DNA from: a virus
Length of the DNA: 27,207 nucleotides
Strand: one strand, 5' to 3'
IMG/VR virus record: IMGVR_UViG_3300034685_000071
Span: 1-27,207 of that record
Shown: one piece after another, positions 2,435 to 15,190 of the stretch
Position numbering within the stretch: the first letter of the stretch is position 1
Layout of the letters: each line of letters starts with the position of its first letter
Position numbers and translations under genes: made by a program
The notes under the pieces: generated by a model
What the model saw: only the letters and a program-made list of their open reading frames with translations
What the model was told of the DNA's origin: nothing
Database searches by the model: none

Positions 2435-2630
2435 AATCGTTGCCCCACGCCCTATTTATAGCGTTACGGTATTCTATAACCGCTTCAGTAAGCTCTGCCA
2501 TGTCCTCACGGAACTCTGCCTCAGTGATTAATTCTCTGATGTAGTGGGCCACAGCCTTGTCAACTCTATCTCTGTAATAATCAGAGGGACTTATACCCTC
2601 TAATCTTAAATCAGTTACTGATTTTAGCAT
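2433..2630 (-). CDS. Small hypothetical protein, 65 aa
   Basis: The frame starts MLKSVTDLRLEGISPSDYYR and is strongly helical and acidic. Its ATG overlaps the stop of the upstream 124-aa gene as ATGCTAA, and the ribosome site GAGGAGGTGG is inside that gene's last codons, so translation is probably coupled. It ends in a hairpin that may be a weak terminator. No family was recognised. It is the downstream partner of the first of two similarly built gene pairs. Confidence 0.75.
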   Translation of the reverse strand: MLKSVTDLRLEGISPSDYYRDRVDKAVAHYIRELITEAEFREDMAELTEAVIEYRNAINRAWGND

Positions 2631-2998
2631 ACTACCACCTCCTCAAAAGTTTCTAGGTTAAAGATGGCAAGCTGATTACGCTCTTTCCCTAGCTCCAGAG
2701 CTTTATCCCTTGAAGCTATGTTTTCAGATAAATCGAGGTATACAGAGCCCTCGTTTACCCAAGTTCCCAGACACAATGCAGGGTTTGACATTAACTTCTG
2801 GGCGTGCTCACCAATGTAAGCAGCCACTATGCCTGTAAAAAACTCACTCACAGGGACTTTAAGTTCAAATCCCTCAAGTGCCACCATATACCCTCCAGAG
2901 GGCTTTTCACCTGTAAAGGGCTTGATAGTTAACCCTCCATCTTTTAGCGTGTCCTCAACCACGCTGTATAACATATCATAGCTAAATTCTAGTTTCAT
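2624..2998 (-). CDS. Conserved-looking phage protein of unknown function, 124 aa
   Basis: A 124-residue frame starts MKLEFSYDMLYSVVEDTLKD behind AAGGAGG. It has the look of a compact alpha/beta domain: GGYMVALEGFE near the front, a middle GTWVNEGSVYLDLS strand pair, and ERNQLAIFNLETFEE at the end. I have the impression that similar small proteins with a GTWV...VYLDLS core occur in many unrelated phages, but I cannot name a family. The last codons (FEEVVVC) contain the ribosome site for the next gene. The leader has a hairpin with a GCAA tetraloop (AGCAG-GCAA-CTGCT) immediately before ACATAAAC. Confidence 0.85.
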   Translation of the reverse strand: MKLEFSYDMLYSVVEDTLKDGGLTIKPFTGEKPSGGYMVALEGFELKVPVSEFFTGIVAAYIGEHAQKLMSNPALCLGTWVNEGSVYLDLSENIASRDKALELGKERNQLAIFNLETFEEVVVC

Positions 2999-3060: not shown

Positions 3061-3076
3061 AGTTTTAATTAAAACT
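3061..3076. repeat. 16-bp perfect palindrome at a gene end
   Basis: AGTTTTAATTAAAACT is a perfect palindrome overlapping the stop codon of the 71-aa gene. It is AT-only in its centre and could form a weak hairpin or bind a dimeric protein. No function can be read from it. Confidence 0.6.
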
Positions 3077-3284
3077 TGTATTCGTATTCAGTAAAGCTCC
3101 ACAGAGCGTTTTTTACACCCTTCTCAAGAGAAGCTTCAACTAATGTGAAGCCTCCAAAATTAATATCGAGGCGATAGTCTACAAAATGACTATCACTCTC
3201 TGTTTCTAGGGTATGCCCTAGTAACAGGTAGTCAGCCTCTAGGTTGGAAAAATTGTGATTATCCACTAAAATGTTTTTTATCAT
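3069..3284 (-). CDS. Small hypothetical protein, 71 aa
   Basis: A 71-residue frame starts MIKNILVDNHNFSNLEADYL behind a good GAGGAGG site and ends in EYEYKF. It is acidic and probably alpha/beta, with no recognised family. It is the first gene downstream of the leftward promoter at 3950-3978 and sits after about 660 bases of noncoding, hairpin-rich leader. An 18-base inverted repeat brackets it, at 3040-3057 and 3317-3334. Confidence 0.7.
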   Translation of the reverse strand: MIKNILVDNHNFSNLEADYLLLGHTLETESDSHFVDYRLDINFGGFTLVEASLEKGVKNALWSFTEYEYKF

Positions 3285-3339
3285 GGTAAAACCTCCTCAA
3301 ATTTTAGTTTATGTAGGCTCTACCCTGTAAAAAGAAGGC

Positions 3340-3945
3340 ACTTAAGCTTTACGGTATTACAGGATAGTTTGACACCTGTAATTTAACGACTCCATGCGTA
3401 TATATGAGAGGCTCCTCACCTAAAATGAGTTTGCCACGTTCCACCCCCGCCAACCTTCTTTCAGTCCCTGCTCACGTACTCAAACAGAGGCCAATCAATA
3501 GTTCCAGCCCATCCTCCCCGCCCTATATGGGCATTTTAGAGGGATTCAGAGGGTTTTCTCAAACCGTAGGACGGTAAAGAGTCCCAATCTCGCACAAAAG
3601 AACATGCGTTCGTATTTAATTATCAAGGTTCGTTCGTGTCCGTACGGACATATAGTCCCATATTGAGGGCGATTGAACGCTTTTGTAATCCCTCGCATAG
3701 CGTGAAGGCGTTACAGTCACTCAATTAAAGCCTAGGGACAGGCTTGAGGCGTTGCGGTGGGACGGTGTTATTGTAAAGATGTTTACAAAAGGCACACCGC
3801 ATCACAGAATGAACAGAGTGTTCATAATATGGACATGTCCAGAATGTGGACACACTGTGAGCTATAGATAGAGCCCACGCATACGCTATAAAGATTTAAA
3901 GGTACAACCTGCTTGGAGCAGGTGGGAAAGGCTTGCTTTCCATGT
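3340..3945 (-). ncRNA. Hairpin-rich noncoding stretch, possible structured RNA or long leader
   Basis: No convincing gene is present. If transcribed leftward from the promoter at 3950-3978, the RNA would open with two tandem 6-bp hairpins (3925-3941 and 3907-3923). These are followed by the palindrome TGGACATGTCCA (3830-3841), a TGAAC/GTTCA hairpin (3810-3824) and a nested pair of 7-bp stems (TTGTAAA-GATG-TTTACAA at 3771-3788 inside TGCGGTG/CACCGCA at 3753-3801). Next come AAGCCT/AGGCTT (3728-3745), the palindrome TGTCCGTACGGACA (3637-3650), ACCGT-AGG-ACGGT (3563-3575) and GCCC-TATAT-GGGC (3520-3532). That density of short perfect stems suggests a folded RNA, though the two palindromes could instead be protein-binding sites. 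The strand and ends are inferred from the promoter. Confidence 0.35.
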
Positions 3946-3949
3946 ATCC

Positions 3950-3978
3950 ATTACACCATAGATTGACCAAAATGTCAA
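3950..3978 (-). promoter_or_regulatory. Leftward sigma70-type promoter
   Basis: On the reverse strand there is a perfect TTGACA (3978-3973), a 17-base spacer and TGTAAT (3955-3950). The start point would be near 3943, immediately before the tandem hairpins. Two near-identical 13-base direct repeats, GCTCAAAGCATTG (3987-3999) and GCTCAAAGCGTTG (4062-4074), lie upstream of it and could be activator or repressor sites. Confidence 0.6.
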
Positions 3979-4134
3979 TACCTATAGCTCAAAGCATTGA
4001 TATGACTGCGTTTCAGCGATGCGGGATTACAGCATCATTTAATTATTTTAGGGTCAAAATGGCTCAAAGCGTTGGTACTACAGGGGTTGAGGGGATTTCT
4101 CTGCGATACAGAGGCTCTGGGAAGCGGTAAAGCA

Positions 4135-4162
4135 GGGGGGAGGGGCGACCGTGGGGTGGGGG
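4135..4162 (+). other. Strong G-quadruplex motif
   Basis: The top strand carries four uninterrupted G runs of 6, 4, 4 and 5 bases, separated by loops of 1 (A), 7 (CGACCGT) and 1 (T) bases. This meets the usual quadruplex pattern with runs longer than the minimum of three. It lies between the leftward promoter and the AT-rich repeat block in an otherwise AT-rich noncoding region. Confidence 0.7.
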
Positions 4163-4199
4163 TGCGGCTTTAAAGAGGCGCAGTCCGACAGTAATAACG

Positions 4200-4700
4200 A
4201 TTTTAAAACACCCTAGAAAAGTAGCACTACTGTAACAGGGAGTAATTGGAACGGTTTGGCGGTATTACAGGGTATGGTGGTAAAATAAAAAATATAATTT
4301 ACTACCTCATTTACTACCGTCAAACCCAGCTATAGCCTCATATATTATATAAGTAGTAAAAGTAGTAATAATATATATAATATATACACGGAAATACATC
4401 ACATCCTGTAATACATACGTAAAATATATTACGTGTATATATTTGCATATATAAAAAATAAAAGTGCGATTTTTTTTACTACTTTCCCTGTAACGCTGTC
4501 GCAGACTGGATTTGACGGTAGTATTTCGATTTATTACCTTTACTACTACAACCCCTGTAACGCAGTAACACGAACGCCTCAGAGAAACAGCTACTTTTTG
4601 CGAGTTTTCCCTACTTTTCTGCGTTTTTCTTACTACTTGGTAGTCAAATCATAAAATTTTAGAAAAGTAGTTACAAAAAAGTTACAGAATTTTTTAGTTA
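4200..4700. other. AT-rich block of short repeats, candidate replication origin
   Basis: The stretch is very AT-rich and contains many copies of TACTAC or GTAGTA and several copies of CCTGTAA in both orientations (for example 4229-4240, 4261-4272, 4405-4412, 4487-4497, 4552-4565). Two adjacent 20-base near-repeats that begin CTACTTTT and carry TGCG lie at 4591-4610 and 4611-4630. Runs of TATATA and AATATA could unwind easily. It lies beyond the 3' end of the primase-helicase gene. Short iterated sites next to a melting region near replication genes are typical of phage origins, but no initiator is identified. The small reading frames here lack ribosome sites. Confidence 0.35.
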
Positions 4701-4765
4701 CTTAATAGTAATTAAGCTAATAATATAATTATATTGAATAAAAATTTTCTATTTTTAGGCATAAA

Positions 4766-4798
4766 AAAAAGAAACAAGTGGGGGACTCGTTTCTTTTT
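4766..4798. terminator. Bidirectional intrinsic terminator
   Basis: A 14-bp stem with one mismatch (AAAAAGAAACAAGT paired with ACTCGTTTCTTTTT) encloses a GGGGG loop. T-rich tracts occur on both strands. It lies about 70 bases past the stop of the leftward primase-helicase gene, so it should end that transcript and separate it from the noncoding region. Confidence 0.75.
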
Positions 4799-4869
4799 CT
4801 GAGGAGTGTCTTATATATGTTCGGAAGGAACCTTAAGAATATTCTACCAAATCCCTTCCTGTTTGTCAA

Positions 4870-7704
4870 CTAAAATTCGCTCTCACAAACCTCTTCTGTA
4901 TCAAGCCCTAGCTCTGTAGCAAGGAGTCTCCTTTTCTCTACATCAATAGCCTCTTCTGTGAACATAATATCCAGAATCTTCTCCTGTAGCATAGAGGACT
5001 TGAGCTTTTCTAACTGGAACATATAGGCTTTTACTGGGGTATTTTGTTTTGGTACTTTCACGGATTTGTATTCCACTACCTCAGACTTTAGGCAGTATTC
5101 CTTCATCGTATTAACACTGTGAGGCGGTGAGTTCCTTGACTCCGCAAGGTAAGATGCCCAAGCATTGTATAGTGACCTAAAGGAAGTAAATCCTATGCCC
5201 TGCTTAGTCACAATGTAGTGTCTCTTAGGAAGCAGTCTGCCTTCAAGAATCATTGTAGCAAAGTCCTCAAGCATTATACTTACAGGGTCGAACTCTGCAA
5301 TTTCTGCTAGTGAGCACTGAACACTGTGCTCTTGGTTAGCTTTTACACGCTCTTCCAGTTCTGGGAATAGCCAAGAAATCCCTGCATAGGTTACAGCCCT
5401 TATAAAAGCTGTTCTATCATCTGCTCCACTGCTAATTAATTCCTTCCTTCTGTCATTCAGTAGCTTGTGGAATTTCCTGTATTCCCCTTCTATTGTCGAA
5501 AGCCTTACAGCTTCTCTGGCGATAACTTTAAAAAGCTTTTCTTCATAAGGCTTGAACTCTTGGTAGACTCTCTGGTTATTTGTAGCCCTATCTAGCTTGA
5601 TTAGGAAACATCTGGAGAGTAGTCCTCTATCCTCTGGGGAATCCTCGCCAGACAGTATCACTGTAGAGAAGAGCTCTGCCTTTTGTACCACTGACGCAAC
5701 TTTCGTACCTTTGGATACCCCTTGTCTTTCAAAGGCTTCTTTTAAGAACTGTGTCTTATACTGGATGTTCCTATCATTCTCCCTGTATTCATCGTACCAA
5801 ACAGGGATGTTGGAGTAGTAAGCCATCATCCTCGACATACCTACTACTGAGGAGTTGAAAGAATCTGCTCTGGTGTTGTTTACATTAAGGGCACAATTTA
5901 GGTGTCTAGCAAGTGTTGATTTACCAGAGCCACTTCTGCCTGTGACAAAGAGAATAGGGAATCCATTGTGAGCCTCTACTACTTTTTCAGAAAATGCCCC
6001 TGCAATCAGCCAACCAATAGCCTCTACAACATCTGGATTACCATATGCTCTGTCTAAAAGGTCTATTGCCTCTAGCTGTACTTCTCTTTCTAGGTGATTT
6101 TCTAGGTCTATTCTAGGAATGTATCTAGTCGAAGAGTCGCTGTATATAGAGCGGGCTCTTACTGTTAAATCCCCAACCTTGAAGTTGTTTTCTTCATCTG
6201 GAGTGTAGAAAGTGCCATCCATCACTAAGGCGTTACCAAATAGCCAGTATTTGTCTTGCCTTCCTACTGTAGCGGGTAGGGTGATATCCATTACATCATC
6301 ACTGTTATCTAGGATGTACAGCATCACTTGGTCGAAGTCCTCCTTAGAGCCCATGAAGATGAAGTCCCCTACTTCAAAGCATCTTTTCTTAAAGGCGTTG
6401 AGGCTAGTTAGCTCCTCTGCTCTAAACATCACAGGGTCAGATACATAGCCAGACCTAGAAGCTAAAATGAACTCCCTGTTTCTTCCATCTGGCATGTGGA
6501 AGTATGCAACAGGCTGTAGCACAAAATTGGAAAGTGTTACTTCTCTAAATCCAGCTTGGGTTAGTACAGGTTTTATATAGGCGTTGTCATACTCATAAAT
6601 TCCTGTCTCACTTGTTCTGTACTGAGCAACTGCTGTAGCACCGCATGACTTGAACAGTTTGTCTATTGCTCTTTTAGAAATCCCTTTAATCTCTTTAAGC
6701 TCTGACTTTAAAACCTCAGCATCTACTTCTGACATTACACTTAGTAGGAAAGACACAGCATCTTCGTTGTAAGCATAGTTAGGGTCTTTAGCAATCTCAT
6801 TAAAAAAGGCTTTCTTTGTTGCAGGAACTACAGGAAGTTTCATAAGTAGCTCTGTAAATCTATCCATATCCTCTGTACAGGCATCCATAAACATTGAGTT
6901 TACATCCTTTATGCCTTTAGGTAGAAGTCTTATTAAGGTTTTTTCTGGGTGGTCGTTGGCTACAGCCATAGCAAGCTTAAGCCCTGCCTCGTCATTGTCC
7001 TTAGTAACTATTATGCTCTCAAACTCGTCCATAAAACCGCTCTTATCTTCTCTGTACGTGTCAGCCCCTACAATACCTATTGCTGTGAAGCCTGCCATCT
7101 GCATAGTCAGTGCATCTGTCTCACCCTCTAAGATATCAAGGACTTTTTTAGAGCTCTTATCCACAAGGTCTAACCCATAATAAGGGTTGTGCCAGTCATC
7201 TGTCTGTTTGCCCCACGTGAACTTCGCTATGCCTTCTACTTTTTCATAGGTTCTTCTTAGCTTCTCTGCAATTACTTTCCCAGAGAAGTCATAAAAAGGC
7301 ATGAGCACTCCTTCTTTTACATCCTTAAATCCCCTTGACTTTAGGAACTCCTCAGTGTATCCTTTGTACTCAGCTAGACCTTTTATATTCATAACCTCTG
7401 GTGGTGTGATGTTGAAGTCTTTCTTAAGAAGTTGCTCCGCTGTTTTAGCATCTTTAGCCTTTCCTGCGATAACCATAAGCTGTAAGGCGTTGTTGCCTGC
7501 ATCCTTTTTTGAAAAGCAGATACAGTCAAACACACCACCTTTATCATATATCTTAAATGATGGGTCGCTCTCTTTGTGTATGGGGCAACGTGTCTTATAT
7601 ATCTTCTTACTAGCAGTGTTTACTTCCAAAATAAAATCTGAATCTTGGTAACCAAAATACTTTTTGAGAATTTCCCTAATGTCTATCTGGCTAACTTTTC
7701 GCAT
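4870..7704 (-). CDS. DNA primase-helicase fusion protein, 944 aa
   Basis: The product should make RNA primers and unwind DNA at the phage fork. Residues 35-75 resemble a CHC2-type primase zinc finger (C40, H43, then C61 and C63; the last pair is spaced C-x-C, tighter than usual). Residues 185-275 are a Toprim domain: ILEGETDAL with E193, and TKDNDEAG with D236 and D238. A long middle section (about 300-560) resembles the region before the ATPase in phage DUF927-like proteins. Residues 580-720 are an AAA+/P-loop ATPase with Walker A GRSGSGKST (589-597), Walker B VWYDEY (D638, E639) and a later RGLLSRC segment that fits an arginine/sensor region. The fused order primase then helicase recalls T7 gp4, but the ATPase is not RecA-like. 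It begins 11 bases after the 123-aa gene and shares its promoter. Confidence 0.9.
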   Translation of the reverse strand: MRKVSQIDIREILKKYFGYQDSDFILEVNTASKKIYKTRCPIHKESDPSFKIYDKGGVFDCICFSKKDAGNNALQLMVIAGKAKDAKTAEQLLKKDFNITPPEVMNIKGLAEYKGYTEEFLKSRGFKDVKEGVLMPFYDFSGKVIAEKLRRTYEKVEGIAKFTWGKQTDDWHNPYYGLDLVDKSSKKVLDILEGETDALTMQMAGFTAIGIVGADTYREDKSGFMDEFESIIVTKDNDEAGLKLAMAVANDHPEKTLIRLLPKGIKDVNSMFMDACTEDMDRFTELLMKLPVVPATKKAFFNEIAKDPNYAYNEDAVSFLLSVMSEVDAEVLKSELKEIKGISKRAIDKLFKSCGATAVAQYRTSETGIYEYDNAYIKPVLTQAGFREVTLSNFVLQPVAYFHMPDGRNREFILASRSGYVSDPVMFRAEELTSLNAFKKRCFEVGDFIFMGSKEDFDQVMLYILDNSDDVMDITLPATVGRQDKYWLFGNALVMDGTFYTPDEENNFKVGDLTVRARSIYSDSSTRYIPRIDLENHLEREVQLEAIDLLDRAYGNPDVVEAIGWLIAGAFSEKVVEAHNGFPILFVTGRSGSGKSTLARHLNCALNVNNTRADSFNSSVVGMSRMMAYYSNIPVWYDEYRENDRNIQYKTQFLKEAFERQGVSKGTKVASVVQKAELFSTVILSGEDSPEDRGLLSRCFLIKLDRATNNQRVYQEFKPYEEKLFKVIAREAVRLSTIEGEYRKFHKLLNDRRKELISSGADDRTAFIRAVTYAGISWLFPELEERVKANQEHSVQCSLAEIAEFDPVSIMLEDFATMILEGRLLPKRHYIVTKQGIGFTSFRSLYNAWASYLAESRNSPPHSVNTMKEYCLKSEVVEYKSVKVPKQNTPVKAYMFQLEKLKSSMLQEKILDIMFTEEAIDVEKRRLLATELGLDTEEVCESEF

Positions 7705-13133: not shown

Positions 13134-13301
13134 ATGGCTTTACACACATCGGCTAGAGGTACTGCGAATACCGAAGCTAAACGCCAAGTTGTAGATATGA
13201 GCGAAAGCATTTCAATGCTAAGACCATCATCTGCACCGCTTCTAGTTCTTTCTAAGAAACTAGATACAAATAGTTGCCATAACTATAAATTCGAGTGGAT
13301 T
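13134..13301 (+). CDS. Major capsid protein, exon 1
   Basis: ATG 13134 follows AAGGAGG and encodes 56 residues (MALHTSARGTANTEAK ... YKFEWI). Beyond base 13301 the frame meets TAA after one more codon, so unspliced message would give only a short peptide. Joining to 14216 restores FEWIEDDFMARW, a continuous conserved-looking segment of an SU10/DUF5309-type capsid protein. The last nine exon bases, GAGTGGATT, pair with the intron guide at 13325-13333 and end in T, as group I introns require. Confidence 0.9.
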
Positions 13302-14215
13302 AACTAAAGGTTGAAGTCGCCTTCGGTTCACTTTAAACCTGTCTAAAATCGGTGAACACCCTAGTGATAGGACAATACCGAGCCAACCTGCTCTTGCGTT
13401 TTGAGGATGATTCTGATAAACTAGAGGCAGGAGGTGTAACGACTGTGAATAATACGAAAAGAATCAAAGGAATTGTAATGGGTATGACTTTAGGTGATGG
13501 GCACTTAATGATTGCTAAAAAGGGAATAAATGCTTGTATGAGAATAACACATACAGAAAAGCAAAGGGAATACTTGGAACACAAGAAAGCACTGCTAGAG
13601 GAACTAACCTCTGTAGCTGTGAGTGAGAAACCGCCAAGACTTCCCAAGCACCCTAACATTGAGATAATGCTCACATCCAGAAACCACCCTCTGTATACTA
13701 GAACGCACAAAATTCTATATGGAACAGGCACTAAAAGATTAACTCCTGTAGCACTGAGTTGGCTCACGCCAGAAGGTATAGCTCTATGGTACATGGATGA
13801 TGGCTCTCTTACTAAAAGCTACAGAACAGGCTCTACAGGGGCTAGGTTCATAGCAAATAGAACTCTATGGCTTAATACCTGTGGGTTTACTTTAGAAGAG
13901 CAACAGTTAATCATAGATTTTTTTAAAAAGGTGTATGATATAGAGTTTAAGCTACAGGCAAAAACAAAGATAAAGGGTAAGCAATACTACTCCCTAAGAA
14001 CTAATGCAGGGAATGCTAACAAGTTCATAGAGCTAGTAAAACCTTACATCGTGCCTAGTATGCAGTACAAAATAGATATGGAGTATACGTACTCTAGGTA
14101 GATTCTTCGGTTATTCGTACGATGGGGGCTGAAAAGCCAAGATACAGTCTGAACTCTGGTGAGAGCCAGAGAGGATAACAGAAATGTGTATCCCCCTTTA
14201 AGGGTAACAAAATGG
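13302..14215 (+). mobile_element. Group I self-splicing intron in the major capsid gene (914 nt)
   Basis: The 5' exon end GAGTGGATT pairs with the guide GGTTCACTT (13325-13333) to form a 9-bp P1 with a U.G pair at the splice site. The preceding CTTC (13321-13324) can pair with the first four bases of exon 2, GAAG, as P10. Core pieces include CGGTGAAC ... GACAATACCGAGCC (P3/P4 region, resembling phage group IA introns), GACTG (13441-13445) pairing with CAGTC (14145-14149) as P7, the S-like sequence AAGATACAGTCT (14139-14150), and a P9 hairpin CTCTGG-TGAGAG-CCAGAG (14154-14171). The intron ends in G at 14215. The endonuclease gene sits in the loop between the two P7 strands. Confidence 0.92.
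13445..14101 (+). CDS. Intron-encoded LAGLIDADG homing endonuclease
   Basis: Such enzymes cut intron-less alleles so that repair copies the intron in. The 218-aa product has two LAGLIDADG helices: GIVMGMTLGDG (9-19) and PEGIALWYMDDG (109-120), with catalytic Asp at D18 and D119. The layout fits the LAGLIDADG_2-type monomer with two motifs. I chose GTG 13445 because AGGAGG (13429-13434) lies 10 bases upstream. An in-frame GTG at 13352 has no ribosome site and lies in the ribozyme core. The reading frame is intact, so the enzyme may be active. Some LAGLIDADG proteins also help the intron splice. Confidence 0.92.
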   Translation: MNNTKRIKGIVMGMTLGDGHLMIAKKGINACMRITHTEKQREYLEHKKALLEELTSVAVSEKPPRLPKHPNIEIMLTSRNHPLYTRTHKILYGTGTKRLTPVALSWLTPEGIALWYMDDGSLTKSYRTGSTGARFIANRTLWLNTCGFTLEEQQLIIDFFKKVYDIEFKLQAKTKIKGKQYYSLRTNAGNANKFIELVKPYIVPSMQYKIDMEYTYSR

Positions 14216-15190
14216 GAAGATGACTTCATGGCAAGATGGACTACCGCTCTTGCAGGAATTGATGCTGTAGCTACAGCACTAACTGTTCCTGTAGACCAAG
14301 CTTCATTAATTGCTGTAGATGACTTAATCAAGGTTGCTAGAACTAGCGAGGTTCTAAGAGTAACTGGTATTTCTTCAAACACTTTAACAGTAGTTAGAGG
14401 TTACGGAGAGACTACAGGAGCTATAATCAATACAGGAGATAAACTTCTTGTTATTGGTAATGCTATCATGCAAGGTGCGGGAGCTCCTGCTGAGAAGTAC
14501 AATGACGTTGTTCCTGTGTTTAACTACACACAAATCTTCAGAACACCTTTCTCAGTTACTAACACTTTCAATGCTACTAAGGTTTATGGCAAGAAAGAGC
14601 TAGATAGACTTAGATTCAAAAAAGGTGTTGAGCACAAAATGTCTATAGAGTACGCTCTTCTTTTCGGAGAGAAGAAACTAGACACAACAGGCTCTCAACC
14701 TAGAACTACTACTGCGGGAGTGCTTTCATTCCTAAAGGGTACTTCTAATATCATGTCAAAAGCAAAATCTGCTGTAACTGAGGCTGACTTCATCGCCTTC
14801 TGCGAGCAGGTGTTTACTTATGGAAGTGAGTCTAAGATAGTTTTATCTTCTCCTATGCTACTTACTGTTCTTGACAGTTTTGCAAGAAACAGACTTAGTG
14901 TAATCCAAGCAGATAAAACGAAGAGCTACGGACTTGATGTAACTTCATTCGTTACTCCTCACGGAACACTTAAGTTTGTAAAACATCCGCTTCTTGTAGG
15001 TGGATATGATGGGCACGGAATAGTGCTTGACCCAGAAGAGCTTTCTTACAGAAACCTTCAAGGCAGAGACACTAAACTTAATACCAATATCCAACTTCCA
15101 GATGAAGATGGCAAGAAGGAAGAGTATATCACTGAGGCAGGTCTTGAGCTTCGTCAAGTTAAGAAGCACGGACTTATCCAATTGACATAA
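14216..15190 (+). CDS. Major capsid protein, exon 2
   Basis: This is the main part of the capsid protein: 324 residues, giving 380 aa after joining to exon 1. It starts EDDFMARWTTALAG. It includes a beta-rich insertion (SEVLRVTGISSNTLTVVRGY), the helical stretch KKGVEHKMSIEYALLFG, and a P-domain-like end in which SYRNLQGRDTK precedes a C-terminal EEYITEAGLELRQ. These are hallmarks of HK97-fold SU10/DUF5309-type major capsid proteins. An ATG-initiated free-standing start inside the intron (14159) has no ribosome site and should not be annotated. A terminator follows 15 bases after the stop. Confidence 0.92.
   Translation, partial: EDDFMARWTTALAGIDAVATALTVPVDQASLIAVDDLIKVARTSEVLRVTGISSNTLTVVRGYGETTGAIINTGDKLLVIGNAIMQGAGAPAEKYNDVVPVFNYTQIFRTPFSVTNTFNATKVYGKKELDRLRFKKGVEHKMSIEYALLFGEKKLDTTGSQPRTTTAGVLSFLKGTSNIMSKAKSAVTEADFIAFCEQVFTYGSESKIVLSSPMLLTVLDSFARNRLSVIQADKTKSYGLDVTSFVTPHGTLKFVKHPLLVGGYDGHGIVLDPEELSYRNLQGRDTKLNTNIQLPDEDGKKEEYITEAGLELRQVKKHGLIQLT

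Follow-up and report, generated by a model that had tools for sequence, protein, structure and literature searches.

The noncoding DNA downstream of a phage primase/helicase gene contains a compact, strongly folded segment on its minus strand, from 3943 to 3718. In our estimation there is about an even chance that this segment forms the structured 5' end of a long leader, itself untranslated and placed ahead of a leftward operon of small genes, and the best reading is that of a lineage-specific leader. The fold is a predicted one, and the role proposed for it in the cell is putative. The window, i.e. the whole stretch of DNA analysed, is a virus record of 27.2 kb (27,207 nucleotides) that carries the primase/helicase gene on the minus strand, as well as terminase, portal, major head protein and tail-type genes. 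Protein searches yielded relatives from viral contigs as well as from three genome assemblies, with TerL mostly 40-53% identical and the head protein about 38-60% identical. None of them is close, and the phage records searched gave distant matches, the best rows being below 30% identity for TerL and primase/helicase. The features on which the following paragraphs rely are listed below.

4870-7704, minus strand: primase/helicase gene, with CHC2 zinc finger, Toprim and P-loop (PHROGs and Pfam)
4841-4869, minus strand: promoter P1, TTGACA-17-TAGAAT with an extended -10, immediately following the stop codon of the primase/helicase gene
4766-4798, minus strand: intrinsic terminator followed by a T run (inverted repeat I5; 4755-4840 z -4.7), some 35 nt past the point where P1 is inferred to initiate
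4219-4670, no strand assigned: putative replication origin, short AAGTAG/CTACTT repeats converging on an AT-rich centre (about 4330-4460)
4135-4162, plus strand: G-rich block with four G runs, quadruplex-like in sequence, upstream neighbour of P2
3950-3978, minus strand: promoter P2, TTGACA-17-TGTAAT with an extended -10 (TGG before the -10), inferred start at about 3943
3718-3943, minus strand: structured block, corresponding to the opening ~225 nt of the inferred transcript
3925-3941, minus strand: hairpin 1, GGAAAG/CUUUCC, mean pairing probability 0.99
3907-3923, minus strand: hairpin 2, ACCUGCU/AGCAGGU, mean pairing probability 0.94
3749-3886, minus strand: four-hairpin junction closed by GCGU/ACGC (3752-3888 z -4.4)
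3720-3748, minus strand: hairpin after the junction, which rearranges when the whole leader is folded
3340-3717, minus strand: remainder of the region initially annotated, inferred untranslated leader with no structure beyond chance
3069-3284, minus strand: 71-aa gene that opens the leftward small-gene operon, with a GAGGAGG ribosome-binding site

By codon usage, with that of the phage itself as the reference, the whole interval from 3285 to 4869 is noncoding. Open frames examined within this gap obtain -0.05 to -0.49 bits per codon, as wrong-frame DNA does, while true genes average +0.38 and the neighbouring small leftward genes score as coding (+0.23 for the 71-aa gene, +0.28 for a 124-aa gene). 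The initial annotation was therefore correct in describing the region as free of genes. A hidden zinc-ribbon gene was considered on the plus strand at 3701-3871, ending with WTCPECGHTVSYR, and rejected on the basis of a Pfam E-value of just 0.13-0.23 and a codon score in the noncoding range; no convincing start site was seen for this frame, and the gene reading is unproven.

The reverse-strand promoter reported at the right end of this region is genuine as a pattern. P2 matches the sigma-70 consensus at 11 of 12 positions, with a 17-bp spacer and TG at -15/-14, and on this pattern match it is a putative promoter. Sites of such quality occur only twice in the 27-kb window when both strands are considered, namely P1 and P2, both on the minus strand of the gap and alike in their 17-bp spacer and in the TGG ahead of the -10. 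About 0.8 of them would be expected in the whole window and 0.03 on the minus strand of the gap; when the gap was simulated 1000 times, no copy contained two. The combined pattern TTGACA-N14-TGGTNNAAT, composed after both sites had been seen, gives 2 matches for 0.00 expected. P2 was omitted by the automatic scan because its -10, TGTAAT, is devoid of an A at position 2. Its -35 sits inside the inverted repeat TTGACATTTTGGTCAA, and a 33-nt direct repeat (3984-4016 and 4059-4091, 73% identical), possibly corresponding to regulator sites, lies just upstream. A weaker minus-strand promoter (3562-3533, 10/12) would start past the structured block. In one relative, L054, a looser TTGACA-N14-TGNTNNAAT is found on the minus strand at 3172-3200, between the origin-like region and the primase/helicase gene. 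At the other end of the gap, P1 and the strong terminator that follows it delimit what may be a small RNA, about 75 nt long (4759-4869, minus strand) and exposing an unpaired CUCCUC, which could pair with ribosome-binding sites.

The folding of this DNA was compared with that of shuffled sequences and of 134 control blocks of equal length, all taken from 4900 rightwards. On the minus strand, 3718-3943 reaches a z of -5.96, and none of 500 shuffles folded as well, the lowest control being at -3.49. The minus-strand blocks flanking it are unremarkable (z -1.76 for 3944-4169, just upstream, and -1.4 on the other side). No more than 2 nt separate the inferred start at 3943 from the onset of the structure, and the tandem hairpins begin at about +3. 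The initial annotation had placed two tandem 6-bp hairpins at the head of the transcript; both are indeed present, the second one having 7 bp. They are followed by the junction, whose hairpins occupy 3878-3857, 3853-3835, 3831-3803 and 3800-3762, and by the last hairpin. Folding the leader at full length preserves hairpins 1 and 2 as well as the four hairpins inside the junction, but gives other partners to the closing helix and to the last hairpin. Within these models, the local hairpins are the robust part of the prediction and the long-range architecture is not. A tRNA-like cloverleaf noticed by eye at about 3957-3901 was discarded: ARAGORN reports none, the region has a z of -1.6 and the 5' strand of the cloverleaf would overlap the -10 box.

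The proposal of a structured transcript of about 600 bases holds only for its first ~225 nt. The whole of 3340-3978 has a z of -3 to -3.7 on the minus strand, and for 3340-3717 this value drops to -0.9, with 35 of 200 shuffles folding equally well, so that the later stems and palindromes are at chance level. Counting hairpins along a long noncoding DNA can thus be misleading, as here just the first third exceeds chance. The plus strand of 3718-3943 also folds beyond chance (z -4.42); much of the signal therefore consists of inverted repeats and does not single out an RNA. G-U pairs are slightly more numerous on the minus strand (5 vs 3 on the plus strand).

Homologues of the element were searched for in several ways. 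Rfam gave no match at the gathering threshold for the whole window and none at E<=10 for 3200-4900, and a DNA search of phage and plasmid records gave no match to the element. Three pattern scans of viral contigs returned a single match, in a GC-rich contig devoid of other similarity, which was judged to be due to chance. A single-sequence covariance model of the junction domain (3750-3892), run against 454 kb of relatives, recovered only itself and its own reverse strand, and a covariance model run without a positive control against 200 genomes, from the family of one relative-carrying genome, gave no match. In the relatives, no convincing shared sequence was found in the segment left of the G-rich block, and none of them displays the same layout of promoter and hairpins. 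Because these searches gave no homologue in which covariation could be examined, a new RNA class cannot be claimed from this window alone. A T-box leader was also envisaged on account of GGGGGUGGAACGUGG at about 3440, which we take to resemble a T-box sequence, and abandoned as Rfam does not support it.

The initial annotation had left the choice between a large ornate RNA and a long leader regulating the small-gene cluster. The leader is the better of these two readings, with a structured portion of ~225 nt: it is supported by a promoter far above chance and correctly oriented, by a structure that sets in at most 2 nt after the inferred start, by a gap devoid of genes, and by genes with ribosome-binding sites lying downstream in the leftward direction. 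An RNA is favoured because the structure starts at the start site of the promoter and because the transcribed strand folds better than its complement (-5.96 vs -4.42); its slight surplus of G-U pairs goes in the same direction. The terminator located 3' of the primase/helicase gene implies that the genes on the left need a start of their own; this need, together with the presence of a structured gap inside the operon, favours a role in transcription. On the basis of these elements, RNA polymerase would start at P2 and copy two tandem hairpins, the four-hairpin junction and one further hairpin, before crossing about 430 bases that show no unusual structure and reaching the leftward small-gene operon. 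The most likely role of the hairpins would be one in cis, at the start of the message, either protecting its 5' end from decay or helping the polymerase past the hairpins and terminators situated within the operon. Against the leader stand the lack of a homologue, the folding of the plus strand, a -10 without its usual A and the weaker promoter at 3562-3533, as well as the relatives, whose hairpin-rich windows are about equal on both strands and none of which has the same layout.

As a working model the nearest parallel, in layout alone, is putL of phage HK022, which follows closely on an early phage promoter and comprises two stem-loops in about 70 nt (PMC9378689). Two perfect hairpins are predicted here from about +3 of the inferred transcript. 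The likeness with the putL and putR antitermination RNA, a type that suppresses termination without a phage protein, is one of layout, and further structure follows the hairpins in the present case. With structured 5' operon leaders of bacteria and phages in general, the element has in common a promoter, a long untranslated leader, 5' hairpins and small genes downstream; it differs in that it matches no riboswitch or leader family described in Rfam. A bolder version, in which it would represent a new class of phage RNA heading early transcripts, acting in cis on RNA polymerase as in put-like antitermination by means of an unrelated fold and possibly also used at the origin, appears quite improbable to us. 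If transcribed, the element would be a structured leader with clear boundaries, in a phage group for which the phage records searched gave no close relative. It would also be a candidate for a purely RNA-based control of early transcription in phages.

Three other explanations have to be weighed against the leader. The large ornate noncoding RNA of about 600 nt, either similar to GOLLD or ROOL or of a new class, draws on the noncoding nature of the region, on its promoter and on the z of -3 to -3.7 obtained for the region as a whole. The element shares with GOLLD and ROOL that it is noncoding, phage-borne and better folded than expected by chance. Many GOLLD members, however, exceed 800 nt (PMC12286853), compared with the ~225 structured nucleotides observed here, where the signal is confined to the beginning and the remainder is unexceptional. 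These RNAs often reside near tRNA islands, even if this vicinity is not strictly required (PMC12286853); ARAGORN detects no tRNA gene in the window. Given in addition that Rfam is empty even at E<=10 and that the element occurs in no relative, GOLLD and ROOL are excluded as far as they are testable, and an ornate RNA of any kind is highly improbable. A separate small structured RNA, initiated at P2, ending or processed near 3718 and acting in trans, would account for the compactness of the block and for its own promoter, but the automatic scan listed no terminator-like site close to 3718 on the minus strand, and no homologue was found; we consider it improbable.

The third explanation places the function in the DNA: the hairpins would be parts of an origin, inverted repeats next to the G-rich block and the iterons that are bound or extruded as the primase/helicase initiates replication, and little conserved in sequence, like origins of the pRN1 type. 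The protein is likely the replication initiator of the phage, and the DNA adjoining the element does appear better explained as a replication origin, with an architecture common to several phages of the group. In several relatives the primase/helicase gene is followed by about 0.9-1.3 kb of noncoding DNA in which a G-rich block is found together with short repeats converging on an AT-rich centre, a locus that looks like a putative iteron-type origin. The repeat is a different one in most of them (TTGTCT in L024, TGTAAC in L043 and L054, TTGTTC in L026, GTGTCA in L034, AAGACA in L042, GACATT in L048); compared with shuffles, the arrays are clear in four relatives and marginal in three, and L031 is without a clear array. 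In the window itself the AAGTAG array is weak, its score of 6 exceeding the shuffle maximum of 5 for 3963-4760 and not that of 8 for the whole gap. Similar G-rich blocks stand between the hairpin segment and the iterons in L024, L043, L026, L048 and L054, and they are on the same strand in several relatives despite their differing sequence. The structured element is situated in the left flank of the putative origin. In the relatives, windows below z -3 represent 13% of those left of the G-rich block vs 2.7% elsewhere, on both strands (one-sided p 0.04, with overlapping windows), and the block itself contains a 46-bp imperfect palindrome at 3813-3858. In pRN1 and phage BIP-1, the replication gene has on its 3' side a stem-loop whose sequence is poorly conserved (PMC4234260), so that structured, sequence-variable noncoding DNA in this position is shared with the present locus. 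The pRN1 origin, however, consists of one stem-loop of about 100 bp located 54 bp after the gene (PMC4234260), whereas the window has several short hairpins starting about 900 bp from the gene, beyond the iterons, with no single long stem-loop, and its protein has a Toprim primase instead of an archaeo-eukaryotic one. The block is moreover outside the iteron arrays, its folding sets in where the promoter would initiate and is the stronger on the strand that would be transcribed, and two relatives (L024 and L042) have no hairpin excess in the corresponding segment. A role at the DNA level stays alive, as the main rival, because of the signal on both strands and of the adjoining origin, and we regard it as rather unlikely, the structured leader being the preferred reading.

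The operon that this leader would precede has several features of its own, and the structured block has company in this left arm of the window. The first gene of the operon, of 71 aa, folds far above chance on both strands (z about -5 on the minus strand and -4 on the plus strand; -6.2 on the minus strand for 3120-3240) and yet scores as coding. The intergenic gap at 2321-2432 is also strong on both strands (z -6 to -7) and displays a terminator-like hairpin together with apparently mutually exclusive pairings. Three small leftward genes carry the leader motif CTACATAA-C-(A-rich)-AGGAGG just ahead of their start codon (upstream of 2320, 2998 and 3284, minus strand). The product of the 124-aa gene (2624-2998, minus strand) is about 40% identical to those of mycobacteriophage genes, e.g. 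in Rockstar and Phantastic. Elsewhere in the window, the major head protein gene (13134-15190, plus strand), unsplit in the relatives, is in two pieces, 13134-13307 and 14159-15190, separated by a LAGLIDADG endonuclease gene (Pfam E 7e-29). This insertion is probably a group I intron, for which Rfam gives a weak match to an intron 3' end (E 0.61).
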